NCBI GenBank assembly: GCA_036374795.1
Contig: DASUTC010000248.1
Coordinates: forward strand, 1 to 32,726
Source: Herpetosiphonaceae bacterium
Lineage (GTDB): Bacteria; Chloroflexota; Chloroflexia; Chloroflexales; Kallotenuaceae
DNA length: 32,726 bases
Reading direction: 5' to 3'
The position numbers and the translations under genes were made by a program. Shown here piece after piece: positions 7,690 to 25,739 of the stretch. Below the pieces are notes generated by a model. That model worked only from the letters and a program-made list of their open reading frames with translations. It did no database searches and had not been told where the DNA came from. The stretch's first letter is position 1. Every line of letters starts with the position of its first letter.

Positions 7690-7912
7690 AAGAGGTTCAA
7701 AGCTCAAAGCTTAAAGTTCAAGAACCGAGTTCCAGATACTTCATGTGGTTCTCGGTTCTTATTTCTTGGTTCTCGGCTCTCCCCTTGCTCTCTTGTTCTC
7801 CTGTTTCTGGTATCCGGTTCTTGATGCTTGGTTCTCCGTTTATTCCCTTTGTTCGCCGGGTGCCCTTTGGGCGCGGCACCCGGTTCTTTGTTCTTTGTTC
7901 TTCTCCCGCCAC
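7690..7912. repeat. TTTGTTC-heptamer element 1
   Basis: This low-complexity stretch lies between convergent genes and is rich in TTTGTTC/GTTCTTT. It has a perfect 10-bp inverted repeat, AAGAACCGAG (7720-7729) with CTCGGTTCTT (7751-7760). It also has a perfect 9-bp hairpin, CCGGGTGCC (7856-7864) with GGCACCCGG (7875-7883), followed by TTCTTTGTTCTTTG. Its right part overlaps the 3' end of the NUDIX gene. It is likely a member of a dispersed family (see 17392, 21017, 23391, 27793 and 29170) and could also terminate transcription. Confidence 0.75.
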
Positions 7913-11689: not shown

Positions 11690-11766
11690 TGGCACGGGCG
11701 ACAGGACTCGAACCTGCGACCTAGGGTTTAGAAGACCCTTGCTCTATCCATCTGAGCTACGCCCGC
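11690..11766 (-). tRNA. tRNA-Arg (anticodon TCT)
   Basis: The minus-strand sequence folds as a cloverleaf. Acceptor GCGGGCG pairs with CGCCCGT (terminal G-U). The D arm has GCTC/GAGC. The anticodon stem AGGGT/ACCCT carries loop CTTCTAA, giving anticodon TCT. The T arm is GCAGG/CCTGT with loop TTCGAGT. Discriminator G and CCA (11692-11690) are encoded. It would decode AGA codons. Confidence 0.96.
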
Positions 11767-17391: not shown

Positions 17392-17625
17392 AAACAAAGA
17401 ACAAAGAACAGAGAACAAAGAGGCTAGAGCGGTGTGGCTCGCTGCCCTTTGTTCTTTGTTCAACGTTCCGAGTTCGGCATTGTGAGTTTCCAGTTCACAG
17501 TTTCGAGTTCAAAGGGCGAGTTGTTTTCTTGTTCCGCCCTCCGGTTCTCCCATTGTTCTTTGTTCCGTTGTTCTTTGTTCTCCGTCTGTTCTTTGTTCTC
17601 CTTCCCTCCTACCCTGCGTCATACT
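17392..17625. repeat. TTTGTTC-heptamer element 2
   Basis: This begins right after the argF stop. The first half is a long hairpin: an A-rich arm with AACAAAGAACAGAGAAC, a small GAGCG-loop-GCTC core (about 17427-17440), then CCCTTTGTTCTTTGTTC. It continues with GTTCAACGTTCCGAG and several further TTTGTTC copies up to about 17600. The core plus 3' arm recurs in inverted orientation in element 3. No gene lies between here and the TPR start. Confidence 0.8.
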
Positions 17626-20700: not shown

Positions 20701-21016
20701 CCAGCAGCTTGTCAACCTGCATATTCTGGCCGGACGCCGCGACGCCGCGATTGCCGAGCAGCGCCGGATCGCGCGCATCTGCAACGATCAAAAGAACTAC
20801 ACCGAGGCCATTAGCTGCTTCCACCAGATCATTGCGCTCGATCCCGCCGACGCCGACGCCTACGAGAGCCTGGGCGATCTGCTGATGCGGCAGCAAGAGT
20901 ACGATCAGGCCGTGCGGCTGTATAAGCGCCTGGGACGTCTACGGCCCAACGACGAGCGCGTCGAGGCGCTGCAAGCGGCGGCGGAGCGCATGCTCGTGCA
21001 GAGCCAGGGAGAGTAG
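17774..21016 (+). CDS. Large tetratricopeptide-repeat protein
   Basis: The 1080-residue product is almost entirely helical TPR-type repeats, for example DALEAFEEAVRLMPQDPDLR around 114-133 and AISCFHQIIALDPADADAY near the C terminus. Two non-repeat linkers interrupt them: a Pro/Glu-rich stretch at about 200-225 and an acidic, Pro-rich stretch at about 416-485. No signal peptide or membrane helix is evident, so it is probably a cytosolic scaffold. A GGAGG SD stands 7 bases before the ATG at 17774; an in-frame extension to 17663 lacks one. It lies between two heptamer-repeat elements. The function is not known. Confidence 0.88.
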   Translation: MAGNRAIFERAMEQGRAAAQREDWTTALKEMLRAVQEIPNDLDARSSLAVALYHNEKYPQAIQLLEELRKRRRDDPFTLAYLARAYEGNQEPAKAVPLLVQLGDQALEQRIIPDALEAFEEAVRLMPQDPDLRIRLAEMFVEAGDMRRAAEQCVEIARIRHAAGDMPGAEEAVDEALSLDSANRTAQALKAELSQRALQAEPEPAYQPMPEPEPAYVPEPEPMRFGTGGLYERPLSNEQLLAQAAAQREAGNGTGALRLYERALEQGADHPDLFYSLGMLYQEHNQHAKAIDLLRKVTGNDEYALSAHYALGDSLKATGDIQAAAEEYETTIRLVDLESIGRAEADDLIAMYRAAAECYAELSELSRAASLYGTLAGFLQSKRWGKEMADEFHARAKEFTERAMFAKLRTMGTGTLPVERVIAPEPEEAPAQTTWGSLPSFTDFLRGDTPAAEEQADDPFAVLDSLPATEQHVFAPVTPIDTSGCDDTIVRFIEASGRFIEQGLVWAAVDACHEIIRHDNNYLPVHLRLGEIYEREGRIEDALNKYRTLIDTYTARGQEIEAIDAYHRMIELSPEATTMRGQLVDLLRKAKRGEEAVEQALIVANTYFKQGQTSRALEEYRRIQTWAPPSARLHQEYGQALLKLERWEAAQFEFRRAVQLDPNAPVGLAQLNLTMAVLGQNEQAMWDSFAALLQKLNAEPQHHPAVQAEYRAALLIVDTPILHYLLGLIQQVADQHASAMMSFEQALSLLVMEERPQLSPILVHQAMAESYLEQDQAQEAIDQLHTVQRLFVEQPLHIVSMHGFARPLTESELQRKLAKALSSVGQWDAAIKALKICQQFDPAEPSAYMQLADIYARQGNMEAALDQYSQLATVHESRQQLDRAIEALEQAARVEPSAMAIRSRLAQMLIRRGILDRGLKELTEVASLQRGAGEIKEAVASLQQAAEIQWMLGKLDQVYHLYDMIVAFAPEDIDARQQLVNLHILAGRRDAAIAEQRRIARICNDQKNYTEAISCFHQIIALDPADADAYESLGDLLMRQQEYDQAVRLYKRLGRLRPNDERVEALQAAAERMLVQSQGE

Positions 21017-21188
21017 AGAACAGAGAACAAAGAACAAACGGATCAGGGGCAACTTGGAACTTGGAACTTCCTGATCCCCTGACTCCCTCAAACTTGAAAC
21101 CCGGAACGTTGAACAAAGAACAAAGGGCAGCGAGCGACACCGCTCTAAGCCCTTTGTTCTTTGTTTGCTTGTTCTTTGTTCTTTTTTC
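21017..21188. repeat. TTTGTTC-heptamer element 3
   Basis: This starts at the TPR stop. It contains GGATCAGG/CCTGATCC (about 21041-21079) around a repeated AACTTGGAACTTGG. A second large hairpin follows: AACAAAGAACAAAGGGC, core AGCGAGCGACACCGCTCT, then AGCCCTTTGTTCTTTGTT (about 21113-21169), ending in CTTTTTTC. It could act as a terminator on the plus strand. The core and GAACGTTGAAC block match element 2 in reverse orientation. Confidence 0.8.
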
Positions 21189-21230
21189 AGCAATTCATCA
21201 GCCGCACGCTGCCGGGCAGTGGAGCAGCTT

Positions 21231-21239
21231 TGCTATAAT
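21231..21239 (+). promoter_or_regulatory. Extended -10 promoter for cdaA
   Basis: TGCTATAAT (TGnTATAAT) has a perfect -10 at 21234-21239; no good -35 is present, as is usual with an extended -10. The predicted start near 21246 lies downstream of the in-frame GTG at 21242, which argues against that longer cdaA start. Confidence 0.6.
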
Positions 21240-21260
21240 GCGTGCCAGGGAGAGAAGGTC

Positions 21261-21290
21261 ATGAGCAGCACGTGTGCTCCACTGCGATAG
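21261..21290 (+). CDS. Possible 9-codon leader peptide upstream of cdaA
   Basis: An ATG with a good SD (AGGGAG, 8 bases upstream) opens a 9-residue frame, MSSTCAPLR, ending in TAG at 21288-21290. The cdaA ATG follows 2 bases later and has no SD of its own. This suggests coupling by re-initiation. There is no evidence that the peptide itself has a function. Confidence 0.35.
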   Translation: MSSTCAPLR

Positions 21291-21292
21291 CC

Positions 21293-22105
21293 ATGCTTGA
21301 TTTATCAGAATTTTGGAGTCGGCTCAATCCATTCCAGTATCCAGGCAACACCGCCGATATTGTGATCGTCGCGGTGATCTTCTGGTGGCTGCTGGGCATC
21401 ATTCGGGGCACGCGAGCCGTGCAACTGCTGCGCGGCGTCACCGTCCTGCTGATCGCAACGTTCGCGATCGGCTCGGTGCTGCAACTGCAAACCGTGGAGT
21501 GGCTGCTCAGCAACGCGATCCGTCCAGCGCTCTTCGTGGCGATCCCGGTGCTGTTTCAGCCTGAGCTACGCCGCGCGCTCGAAGCGCTGGGCCGGACCAG
21601 CGAGGCGTTTACCCGCCGCCCCTTCGGCGCGAACCACAGCGATCTGGCGACGACGATCAATATTCTGGTGCGGGCTGCCGCGCAGCTCTCACAGCAGCAG
21701 ACCGGCGCGCTGATGGTGATCGAGCGCAACACGGGGCTGCAAGAGTACGCCGACCGGGGCGTGATCCTCGATGCGCGGCTGTCTGTACCGCTGCTGCTCA
21801 ACATCTTCTTTGTCAACTCGCCGCTGCACGATCTGGCCGTGATTGTCCGTGGCAGCCGCATCCTGGCCGCCAACGCCGTGCTGCCGCTCAGCGAAAACGT
21901 CGTCGGCATGCCGCGCTACGGCTCGCGGCACCGCGCCGCGCTGGGCGTGAGCGAGCAATCGGACGCGATTGCCGTCGTCGTCTCGGAGGAGACGGGCAGC
22001 ATCTCGGTGGCGACGAACGGGCGCATGGTGCGGCATCTGAGCGAGAACCGTCTGCGCAAGCTACTGGCCGAGCTGCTCAACGTGACGCTTGAGGAGCCTC
22101 AATGA
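21293..22105 (+). CDS. cdaA: Diadenylate cyclase CdaA-like membrane protein with altered DGA motif
   Basis: CdaA makes the second messenger c-di-AMP from two ATP. The 270-residue product has the family layout: three N-terminal membrane helices (about 22-85), a short helix, and the DAC domain from about 115. The RHR motif is intact at 212-214 (GSRHRAALGVSEQSDA), and SEETG is at 231-235. The other catalytic motif, DGA in NxPLHDGAVI, reads D180-L181-A182 here. An in-frame start at 21242 precedes the predicted transcript start, so ATG 21293 is used. The stop overlaps the YbbR gene by 4 bases, as in the cdaA-cdaR pairs of Firmicutes. Confidence 0.88.
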   Translation: MLDLSEFWSRLNPFQYPGNTADIVIVAVIFWWLLGIIRGTRAVQLLRGVTVLLIATFAIGSVLQLQTVEWLLSNAIRPALFVAIPVLFQPELRRALEALGRTSEAFTRRPFGANHSDLATTINILVRAAAQLSQQQTGALMVIERNTGLQEYADRGVILDARLSVPLLLNIFFVNSPLHDLAVIVRGSRILAANAVLPLSENVVGMPRYGSRHRAALGVSEQSDAIAVVVSEETGSISVATNGRMVRHLSENRLRKLLAELLNVTLEEPQ

Positions 22106-23352
22106 GACGACTACGCACATCCGGCCTCCAGTTTTTGCTGGCGCTGATGCTTTCTCTAGCGCTCTGGACCTACGTCTCGTTTACGGAAAATCCGACCGAG
22201 CAGGAAGCGTTCGAGGTGCCAGTCACGCTGATCGATCCCCATGAGGGGCTGGTGCTGGTCGATGCGACTACCGGCGAGCCAGCGGAGCCCAAGATCCTCA
22301 CCACGCTTCAGGTCACGGGGCCGCAGCTTAATCTGGACGAGCTGGATACCGAAAGCTTCACGGCGACCGCCGATCTGAGCACCCTGGAGGCGGGCCTGCA
22401 CTCGGTGCCGATTCGTGTCAGATGGCCGAGCACCGTGCGGGTGCGCAGCCACAATCCGGCCTCCCTACAGGTGCGGCTGGTGCCGGAAGCCACGCGGACC
22501 ATGACGGTGACGCGCGATGTGCAGGGCCAGCTTCCGTTCTTATTCGAGCTGGAAGATATTTCGCTCGCAACCGATCAGGTCGTCGCCAGCGGGCCGCAAG
22601 ACCTGATGGCCCGCATCGAGCGCGTCAGCCTGCCGATCGATTTGCAGGGCCGCACCGCAAACTTCACCAGGGAGATCGAGCCGATCGCCCTCGACGAGAA
22701 TGGCGATCCGGTAAGCGGGATCACGCTCAGGCCCAATCGGATCAAAGTCAACGTGCAGATCGAGTCGCGGGTGGAAGTCCAGCGCGCCTCGGTGCTGCCC
22801 TCCTTTACGGGACAGCCAGCGCCCGGTTATACCACCGAGCGTATCGATTGGGCTCCCAAGTTCGTTGAAATTATTGCGTCGCAGGCGATCACCGTGGCGC
22901 TCGAAACCGAGAAGATCGACCTGGCGGGGCGGACCGAGTCGTTCACCCAGACGGTGAGCGTGATCAAGCCGACGGGCATTCAGACCCAACTGCTGACGGA
23001 GCGTATCACCGTCACGGTGCCGGTGGTGCCCTTCCAGGTTCCATCAAATGTGCCGCTGTTTGTACCGGTGACACCGGTCAATCTCGGATCGGATCTGGCA
23101 GTGACCGCCGATCCGCCGACGCTGACGATCACGGTGTCGGGCACGTTCGATCAGTTGAGCCAGCTTGCGAACGCGACGGTTCAGGCGACCGTCGATCTGA
23201 GCGGGCTGGGACCCGGCACATACCAGCGCCCGGCGGCGATTCCGCTTCCGCAGGGGCTACAAATCGTGGGCGATCAGCCACAGGTGACGGTGACGATCGC
23301 GCCCAGTCCGCCGGGCCAGCCATCGCCCGCGCCAACAACGAACGGAGGTTAA
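22102..23352 (+). CDS. YbbR-domain (CdaR-like) membrane-anchored protein
   Basis: The 416-residue product has an N-terminal signal anchor (about 8-27, LQFLLALMLSLALWTYVSF). It is followed by tandem YbbR-like beta domains with recurring 'V.GP/ASGPQDLMARIERV' and 'ITVTVPV' strand patterns, and a Pro-rich C terminus. CdaR proteins bind CdaA at the membrane and modulate c-di-AMP synthesis. The ATGA overlap with cdaA supports that partnership. In Firmicutes the next gene is usually glmM then glmS; here glmM is absent and glmS follows after a structured leader. Confidence 0.88.
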   Translation: MRRLRTSGLQFLLALMLSLALWTYVSFTENPTEQEAFEVPVTLIDPHEGLVLVDATTGEPAEPKILTTLQVTGPQLNLDELDTESFTATADLSTLEAGLHSVPIRVRWPSTVRVRSHNPASLQVRLVPEATRTMTVTRDVQGQLPFLFELEDISLATDQVVASGPQDLMARIERVSLPIDLQGRTANFTREIEPIALDENGDPVSGITLRPNRIKVNVQIESRVEVQRASVLPSFTGQPAPGYTTERIDWAPKFVEIIASQAITVALETEKIDLAGRTESFTQTVSVIKPTGIQTQLLTERITVTVPVVPFQVPSNVPLFVPVTPVNLGSDLAVTADPPTLTITVSGTFDQLSQLANATVQATVDLSGLGPGTYQRPAAIPLPQGLQIVGDQPQVTVTIAPSPPGQPSPAPTTNGG

Positions 23353-23370
23353 CGCACACCGATAACGTTA

Positions 23371-23525
23371 AGCGCTTGGCCTGTAGGGGAAGGAGAACAA
23401 AGAACAACGGAACAAAGAACAAAGCTGTTAACTTCTGTTCTCTGTTCTTTGTTCTCTATTCTGCTCGTACAGGTGACGAGGTGAAGGTTCCTCGCGAAAG
23501 CGAGTGCTAACGATCCGGCAGAAGC
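23371..23525 (+). ncRNA. Candidate divergent glmS ribozyme (leader of glmS)
   Basis: Seen: AGCGCTTGG at 23371-23379, then CCTGTA (23380-23385), which pairs with TACAGG (23468-23473). This sits directly before TGACGAGG (23474-23481), then GGTT, TCG, GCG, TGC and CCGGC in the order of the glmS ribozyme core. The family starts AGCGCC and pairs it with GGCG. Here CGCTT can pair with AAGCG (23488-23492 region), a compensatory change in P2.2. The P1 loop is filled by a heptamer-repeat hairpin. P2 is weakly formed, P2.1 is shortened and P3/P4 were not identified. The 3' limit is approximate. If active, glucosamine 6-phosphate would trigger cleavage at about 23371/23372 and reduce glmS expression. 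Confidence 0.55.
23391..23460. repeat. TTTGTTC-heptamer element 4 (inside the ribozyme P1 loop)
   Basis: GAGAACAAAGAACA (23393-23406) pairs perfectly over 14 bp with TGTTCTTTGTTCTC (23443-23456). A second GAACAAAGAACA copy (about 23410-23421) lies in the loop. It lies wholly between the two P1 strands of the glmS ribozyme candidate and would extend that helix. Confidence 0.8.
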
Positions 23526-23894
23526 GTCTCGTGGGCGAGGCGGCAGGCAGCGGCGGCGGGACTGGCACTTCCGCGCCCTGGCGGCGGACTCGCTCAGACC
23601 AGCGGACGTGGATACGGATCGGAACAGCGAAGATCAGCGGATGCCTTCAGGATGCGCTGCCATCCTCGAACGCCAGCCAAAGCCGCCGGGCGACCGGCGG
23701 GACAATCAGCGGGCGTAGCAGCACACAAGTCACAGCAGCGGGCAGCACAGTCGCGTCATCGGCTGTGGTGCGGCTGCGCACCCCGGACTTGTCTCAACCC
23801 AATGTTTTTATCAGCGACGATTATTTCCGGTCGGCGGAGTGCGGCGACGTGTGCTCGTCCTGCGTCCCGACCGCTCGATACACGAGGTTTGATT
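23526..23894 (+). other. Remaining glmS leader
   Basis: This G+C-rich stretch has short hairpins, for example CGTCTCG/CGAGGCG near 23523-23540. It would be the 3' part of the transcript between the ribozyme core and glmS. Open frames through it have no recognisable protein features. GAGG before the glmS ATG serves as SD. Confidence 0.35.
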
Positions 23895-25739
23895 ATGTGT
23901 GGCATTGTAGGATATGTCGGATCGCGCGAGGCGACAGAGGTGGTGGTGAGCGGGCTGCAACGGCTGGAGTATCGCGGCTACGACTCGGCGGGCATTGCGA
24001 TCTTGAACGGCGGCGATTTCCAGGTGCGTCGCTCCGTGGGCAAGCTCAGCAATCTTCAGCAGCGGCTACGTGCCGAGCCAACGCACGGACGGCAAGGCAT
24101 CGGGCATACGCGCTGGGCAACGCACGGCGGCGTCACCGAGGCCAACGCGCATCCGCATCGCTCCGACAGCGGCGATATTGTCGTGATCCAGAACGGCATC
24201 TTCGAGAACTACCTTGAGCAAAAGGGCCAGCTCGTCGAGGCCGGCGTGACGTTTCACTCGCAGACGGATACCGAGGTGATCGCGCATCTGATCGAGCGCG
24301 AGACGCAGGCTACGGGCGATTTTGTGAGCGGCTTCCGGCGCGCGATGCAGCAGCTTCGCGGCGGTAACGCGGTGGTGGCGATGCATCGCCAGCAGCCTGG
24401 GCTGATCCTGGCGGCGCGGCTGGGCAACGCTGGCGGCGTGGTGATCGGGCTGGGCGAGGACGAGAACTTTATCGCCTCCGATATTCCGGCGATTCTGGAC
24501 TACACCCAGCAGGTGCTTTTTCTGGAGGACGGCGAGCTGGCGATCATCACGGATCAGACGGTGCGCGTCGAGCGCATCAGCGGCGAGGCGGTAACAAAGC
24601 AGCCGCAGCGGATCAACTGGGACCCTGTGGCGGCGGCCAAGGGCGGCTACAAGCATTTCATGCTCAAAGAGATCTTCGAGCAGACGCGCTCGATTACCGA
24701 TACGCTCCATGACCGGATCGATCTCGAAAACGCGCGCGTAGACCTCGACACGCTCACGCTCAGCGACGAGCAGCTTCGCGCGATCGACAAAATCTATATC
24801 GTCGCCTGCGGCACCGCGTGGCACGCCGGGCTGATCGCCAAGTTCGTGATCGAGGCGCTCGCCCGCGTGCGGGTGGAGGTCGACTACGGCTCCGAGTTCC
24901 GCTACCGCAATCCGATCCTCGACCAGGGCACGCTGATGATCGCTATCACCCAGTCGGGCGAGACGGTGGATACGCTGGTGCCGATGGAGCTGGCGCGCGA
25001 GGCGGGCGTGCCCTGCCTGGGCATCGTCAACGCGGTCGGCTCGCAGGCGGCGCGGCTCAGCGATGCCGGCGTGATCTACCTCAACGCCGGACCGGAGATC
25101 GCCGTAGCCTCGACCAAAGTCTTCACCTGTATGCTGATCGCGGCGTATCTGTTCGCGCTCAAGCTGGGCGAGGTCAAGGGGCAGATCGATCGGGCGATGA
25201 TGCGCGAACATTTGCAGGCGCTGCTGGCACTGCCCAACAAGCTCGGCACGCTGCTCCAGCAGACCGCGCGCTACGAGCAGCTCGCGGAGCGCTACCGCCA
25301 CACGACGGATATGCTCTTCCTGGGACGCGGCATCAGCTACCCGATTGCGCTCGAAGGCGCGCTGAAGCTCAAAGAGATCTCGTACATCCATGCCGAGGGC
25401 TACCCGGCGGGCGAGATGAAGCACGGCCCGATCGCGCTGATCGACGAGCAGATGCCGGTGGTCTGCATCGCCGTGCGCGACAACGTGTACGATAAGATGC
25501 TCTCGAACATCGAGCAGGTCAAGACGCGCGGCGGCGAGGTGATCGCGATCGTCACCGAGGGCGATACTACTGCGCGCGACAAGGCCGACTTCGTGATCGA
25601 GGTGCCGCGCACGCTGCCGCTGCTCTCGCCTGTGCTGACGGTGGTGCCGCTGCAACTGCTGAGCTACTACTGCGCGCTGCGGCGCGGCGCGGATGTCGAT
25701 CAGCCGCGCAATCTGGCGAAGAGCGTCACCGTGGAGTAG
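23895..25739 (+). CDS. glmS: Glutamine-fructose-6-phosphate aminotransferase (isomerising)
   Basis: GlmS makes glucosamine 6-phosphate from fructose 6-phosphate and glutamine, the entry to peptidoglycan precursors. The 614-residue length is typical. The class II glutaminase domain starts MCGIVGYVGS; the Cys next to Met is the nucleophile, which fixes the start at 23895 although the frame is open to 23652. LEYRGYDSAGIA, HTRWATHG and QNGIFENY follow. Two SIS domains come next, with TQSGETVDTL and ASTKVFTCMLIA in the first and GRGISYPIALEGALKLKEIS in the second. The C-terminal PRNLAKSVTVE is diagnostic. CGAGG lies 7 bases upstream of the ATG. Confidence 0.96.
   Translation: MCGIVGYVGSREATEVVVSGLQRLEYRGYDSAGIAILNGGDFQVRRSVGKLSNLQQRLRAEPTHGRQGIGHTRWATHGGVTEANAHPHRSDSGDIVVIQNGIFENYLEQKGQLVEAGVTFHSQTDTEVIAHLIERETQATGDFVSGFRRAMQQLRGGNAVVAMHRQQPGLILAARLGNAGGVVIGLGEDENFIASDIPAILDYTQQVLFLEDGELAIITDQTVRVERISGEAVTKQPQRINWDPVAAAKGGYKHFMLKEIFEQTRSITDTLHDRIDLENARVDLDTLTLSDEQLRAIDKIYIVACGTAWHAGLIAKFVIEALARVRVEVDYGSEFRYRNPILDQGTLMIAITQSGETVDTLVPMELAREAGVPCLGIVNAVGSQAARLSDAGVIYLNAGPEIAVASTKVFTCMLIAAYLFALKLGEVKGQIDRAMMREHLQALLALPNKLGTLLQQTARYEQLAERYRHTTDMLFLGRGISYPIALEGALKLKEISYIHAEGYPAGEMKHGPIALIDEQMPVVCIAVRDNVYDKMLSNIEQVKTRGGEVIAIVTEGDTTARDKADFVIEVPRTLPLLSPVLTVVPLQLLSYYCALRRGADVDQPRNLAKSVTVE

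Follow-up and report, generated by a model that had tools for sequence, protein, structure and literature searches.

The glmS leader in the 32,726-nucleotide stretch of Herpetosiphonaceae DNA analysed here (the window) very probably contains a full-length, cis-acting glmS ribozyme of an insert-bearing Chloroflexota subtype, whose self-cleavage, dependent on glucosamine 6-phosphate (GlcN6P), would lower the level of GlmS. The glmS ribozyme is a textbook case of an RNA with a metabolite as its catalytic cofactor. By homology, the window element is a real, full-length and divergent member of this family and, to judge from its sequence, a lineage form with no visible decay. A sequence-only reading of this DNA had recognized a divergent glmS ribozyme at 23371–23525 and had proposed a covariance-model search, which returned a full-length match: cmscan with Rfam 15 places RF00234 at 23360–23725 of the plus strand with a score of 52.4 bits (cut-off 37; E 1.5e-9), and the model is covered from end to end (positions 1–167). 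The true span of the ribozyme is approximately 23371 to 23722, so that the earlier boundaries hold for the 5′ half of an element that runs on well beyond them. When the whole genome of the organism was searched with RF00234, the score reached no more than 34.2 bits, the match being disrupted by long inserts.

Architecture of the catalytic core

Pairs are numbered after PMC7125110, which gives P2.1 as 28–30 with 43–45 together with the pairs C2-G56, C5-G53 and G7-C52, and after PMC11602151, which describes the C38-G55 and G39-C54 pairs in B. subtilis. The features of the element all lie on the plus strand. The cleavage-site block AGCGC occupies 23371–23375, with the predicted cleavage site (A23371/G23372) and the 5′ strand of P2.2 at 23371–23378 (RF00234 alignment, PMC7125110 numbering), and is followed by a 6-bp P1 (23380–23473), in which the RF00234 alignment pairs CCTGTA at 23380–23385 with TACAGG at 23468–23473 around a long inner hairpin. 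Next come TGACGAGG at 23474–23481, which includes the ACGAGG block (23476–23481; RF00234 alignment, relatives) with the 5′ strand of P2.1 (C23477, G23478 and A23479), and a GGTT that ends at 23489. The sequence-only reading had this order of blocks right as far as GGTT, but the TCG, GCG, TGC and CCGGC that it then added (approximately 23492–23519) belong to an inserted domain.

P2, which had been described as weak, consists of 5 bp formed by GAAGG at 23483–23487 and CCTTC at 23644–23648, both strands being identified by the RF00234 alignment and by covariation. Likewise, P2.1 had seemed about 4 bases shorter than usual, but its true 3′ strand lies past the insert at 23627–23629, where relatives and the PMC7125110 numbering place GCG instead of the family UCG; C23477-G23629 and G23478-C23628 are paired and A23479 faces G23627, which leaves two of the three pairs standard. 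The 3′ strand of P2.2 is AGCG at 23636–23639, inside CAGCGGATGCC and within the CAGCGG region at 23635–23640 (RF00234 alignment, conservation in relatives), and the helix therefore reads CGCU:AGCG, with the pairs C23373-G23639, G23374-C23638, C23375-G23637, U23376 or U23377 with A23636, and G23378-C23635. The compensatory change claimed earlier for P2.2 is real, since C5 accompanies G53 in 18 loci and A5 or U5 accompanies A53 in 59, but the CGCTT:AAGCG pairing then assigned to it had the wrong partner: AAGCG at 23522–23526 was rejected because it is not conserved in relatives, whereas the CAGCGGAnGCC at 23635 is.

P3 and P4, which the earlier reading did not recognize, are both present at 23649–23715 according to the RF00234 alignment. 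P3 is an AGGATG/CATCCT hairpin (23649–23666), and P4 (23671–23715) has a CAAAG/GACAAUCA internal loop and a distal helix of 23683–23689 with 23694–23700 closed by a GCGA loop, so that both the internal-loop purines and the GNRA loop of this domain are retained. A candidate P3.1 could form between the loop GCTGC (23656–23660) and GCAGC at 23718–23722; in an automatic loop-tail test across loci, the pairing was not clearly above that in shuffles. All of these misreadings, namely the choice of P2.2 partner, the apparent shortness of P2.1, the apparent weakness of P2 and the failure to recognize P3 and P4, came from a single overlooked insert of approximately 130 nt.

The element shares with the RF00234 ribozymes of Bacillus subtilis and Thermoanaerobacter tengcongensis (PMC11602151, PMC7125110) the AGCGC and ACGAGG blocks, P1, P2, P2.1 with two of its three pairs, P2.2, P3, P4 with its GNRA loop and purine internal loop, and the position before glmS, but it differs from them in its insert, in having G for U at position 43, in a P1 loop filled by a repeat and in the CGCU:AGCG form of P2.2.

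An inserted two-hairpin domain

In 58 loci from Chloroflexales and Anaerolineae, a domain of two hairpins separates the 5′ strand of P2 from the 3′ strand of P2.1; in the window it measures approximately 130 nt, and P3 and P4 begin about that far beyond the region considered previously. Hairpin A (23490–23506; covariation, fold) pairs CTCGC at 23491–23495 with GCGAG at 23500–23504 across a GAAA loop, and adds C23490-G23506 with T23505 bulged. It is joined by the linker CUAA (23507–23510; YUAA in 57 of the 58 loci) to hairpin B (23511–23621; basal-stem covariation, fold), which has a basal stem of 23511–23517 with 23615–23621 and a long, variable interior, and which is followed by the linker GAACA (23622–23626; GAAnA in relatives). 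Both linkers are near-invariant across the insert-bearing loci, and the common plan, ACGAGG - P2 - UU - hairpin A - YUAA - hairpin B - GAA(C/A)A - (U/G)CGA - approximately 3 to 6 nt - C(A/G)GCGG - AnGCC, was seen in every ribozyme-bearing Chloroflexales glmS leader that was read. A literature search for a UAA/GAN reading of the two linkers returned no useful source.

The structure of the domain is borne out by covariation. Across 47 sequences, in which hairpin B was cut back to seven bases per side, standard pairs fill 94.4% of the cells in P2 and the two inserted hairpins, compared with 69.9% in shuffled and at most 52.5% in slid alignments. Two-sided changes in the same helices number 208 cells, against 56.6 in shuffles, and affect all seven pairs of hairpin A and all six of hairpin B, although the sequences are related to one another and these counts do not represent independent events. 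A second, segment-wise pairing count agrees, with one bulge permitted in hairpin A, which slightly favours pairing. Folded by itself, the insert has no unusual predicted stability (z −1.37), and the sequence is GC-rich.

The compact ribozymes of other Chloroflexota (e.g. L084–L092 and L129) have the same core but are devoid of the insert, with just a few nucleotides between P2 and AUCGA; comparison with them locates the insertion between the P2 5′ and P2.1 3′ strands. Placement of P2b at the CCTCG of hairpin A, as in the Rfam alignment, was rejected since in L007, L014, L057 and L123 a UCG is absent from that place while the CGA block beside CAGCGG is kept. For this subtype, the Rfam model therefore gets the alignment of the P2.1 strand wrong, and in genome scans it loses members with long inserts. 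The insert probably steadies or braces the joining strand running into the cofactor pocket.

Distribution among Chloroflexota

The family had been considered to lie outside its usual hosts in this organism, which is true only by comparison with Firmicutes, since RF00234 matches were found in 125 of 400 sampled Chloroflexota genomes. Among the 50 Chloroflexales glmS loci read, 36 carry the ribozyme upstream of glmS with the same conserved blocks, and 11 to 14 are without it. R1, a model built on the insert-bearing core, matched 71 of the 400 genomes, approximately 66 of which have the insert; five (G089, G097, G128, G266 and G343) represent short matches to compact forms. Two families with long hairpins B (f1 and f2) were missed by the R1 scan even though their glmS leaders carry the insert, and R1 sees the window element as two fragments only, owing to the length of its hairpin B. 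Named carriers of the insert include Roseiflexus, Chloroflexus, Herpetosiphonaceae, Thermoflexales and Anaerolineales, and the compact form occurs in other lineages of the phylum. As a candidate for wider occurrence, the GAACA-type insert was sought in 84,980 species, which yielded 30 loci from Chloroflexota and a single match from Verrucomicrobia; the latter has no other part of the element and was taken as chance. Separately, a glmS ribozyme with a different insert, situated between the AUCGA block and CAGCGG, was observed beside cdaA and cdaR homologues in locus L105 (core 1546–1631).

A second class of RNAs linked to glnA

Many genomes of families f13 and f45 contain two R1 matches. One copy precedes glmS and begins with AGCGC; the other begins with AGCGGCUG or AGCGACUG in all 19 cases read, so that AGCG(G/A)CUG replaces AGCGC at the start, and the insert and CAGCGG are kept. 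Second-class RNAs with this insert lie at L148 395–602, L149 830–1047, L155 517–597, L161 541–619, L164 4613–4722 on the minus strand and L168 401–482. The first five of these also share with the window element ACGAGG, CAGCGG, P3 and, in the P4 region, a GNRA-like loop, but differ from it in their start and in the glnA gene or operon downstream. From the sequence, their P2.2 could consist of C2-G56, G3-C55, C5-G54, U6-A53 and G7-C52, with the bulge moved to position 4; according to PMC7125110, bulges shifted within P2.2 give partial rescue.

The second class precedes glnA in f45 and in one f13 locus (L148, L149, L155, L161 and L179, and L168 of f13), and in L148 the series is second class, glnA, first class and glmS. 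The remaining f13 loci have it before an Ada-like methyltransferase gene, and where the locus is long enough glnA is the third gene (ada-like, EamA transporter and glnA in L164); glnA is also present in the f13 loci L177 and L186. No report of glmS-type ribozymes before glnA was found in the titles and abstracts of seven papers. We tentatively propose, with slightly less than even confidence, that Chloroflexota possess a distinct subtype in which the pocket-side strand has been rebuilt by the two-hairpin domain, and that part of the phylum also has a duplicated, moved-bulge class that controls glutamine synthetase. If so, the second class would tie amino-sugar supply to nitrogen assimilation or would sense a different compound.

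Two further observations were made at such loci. A 6S RNA lies approximately 30–150 nt upstream of the second-class RNA in L158 (152–327) and L161 (298–473), which belong to different families. In L154 (4492–4570, minus strand), a copy of the AGCGC class with the insert stands before a gene other than glmS that reads like an FMN-type glutamate synthase; the part of this gene that was tested had no Pfam match, and the next gene matched an amidotransferase below threshold only.

Peculiarities of the window copy and alternative explanations

The P1 loop of the window copy (23390–23465) is taken up by one copy of a palindromic repeat that is dispersed through the same genome, where this copy has 60 matches; in the window, 21 hits of the repeat motif were counted, for an expectation of 0.03. 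The repeat is built on AACAAAGAACAAAG, is mostly intergenic and is found in the window at 7886–7899, 17393–17460, 17551–17597, 21019–21187 and 23396–23460. In a Thermoflexales copy (L034, minus strand), the P1 loop is also swollen, by a different repeat-like sequence, which suggests that this loop is tolerant of such inserts. The second peculiarity is G23627 at position 43, a residue that is U in all 22 compact loci counted and belongs, with 44 and 45, to the cofactor pocket according to PMC7125110. As a result, the third P2.1 pair is A-G and not A-U in the window and in 11 other loci. In the predicted fold, G43 also allows GCU at 23506–23508 to pair with AGC at 23626–23628, and this alternative pairing, if formed, could compete with P2.1. 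Moreover, either the long hairpin B or the P1-loop repeat could slow folding of the RNA.

These features, and the loss of the ribozyme from some Chloroflexales glmS loci, might be taken to indicate that activity has been abolished by the repeat, the length of hairpin B and the replacement of U by G in the pocket, and that the element is now a mere long leader, the second of the two possibilities, new subtype or decayed form, raised by the sequence-only reading. We consider decay improbable, however, because all other core helices and blocks are intact, the P2 and P2.2 pairs are compensated, relatives whose cores are intact commonly have long hairpins B, and G43 occurs in 12 of the 58 insert-bearing loci, drawn from several families in which the core is otherwise preserved; the sequence does not support decay. 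It is more improbable still that the glmS fold was kept and its cofactor preference moved, through G43 and the insert, to another amine or amino acid. The base change affects the 3′ strand of P2.1, which PMC7125110 assigns to the cofactor pocket, and the moved-bulge paralogues linked to glnA indicate that the fold has been redeployed in Chloroflexota; both would agree with such a shift, but the cleavage dinucleotide, C2, G56 and G57 are all unchanged and the window copy still stands before glmS, which makes GlcN6P the simplest cofactor. Chance resemblance or an unrelated structured leader, to which the GC-rich sequence and the unremarkable stability of the insert might point, is negligible given a full-length covariance match at E 1.5e-9 directly before glmS and covarying conservation in relatives. 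The insert beside the pocket strand, the natural G43 and the glnA-linked paralogues constitute natural variants that probe the tolerance of the core, and they allow one to ask whether ribozyme specificity can change.

Gene context and proposed mode of action

As previously noted, glmS is the next gene (coding sequence 23895–25739; SIS and GATase_6 domains). Domain searches identified, on the same plus strand, cdaA (21299–22105; DAC domain, diadenylate cyclase, start codon uncertain) and cdaR (22102–23352; YbbR family), whose stop codon ends 18 nt upstream of the predicted cleavage site. The order is therefore cdaA-cdaR-glmS, with the element between cdaR and glmS in the glmS leader, and the spacing of the genes suggests a single transcript. 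A consensus scan of 21000–24000 for promoters and terminators gave nothing above chance.

If the insert-bearing ribozyme acts as its family membership suggests, accumulating GlcN6P would bind as a cofactor to the preformed double-pseudoknot core (P2, P2.1 and P2.2), and the RNA would undergo self-cleavage at A23371/G23372. This would detach cdaA-cdaR from the glmS portion of the transcript, which would then be lost, leading to less GlmS. A cut at this position would leave cdaA and cdaR joined to their own 5′ end. Elsewhere in the window, a tRNA gene was found at 11693–11766 on the minus strand (RF00005, 68 bits).
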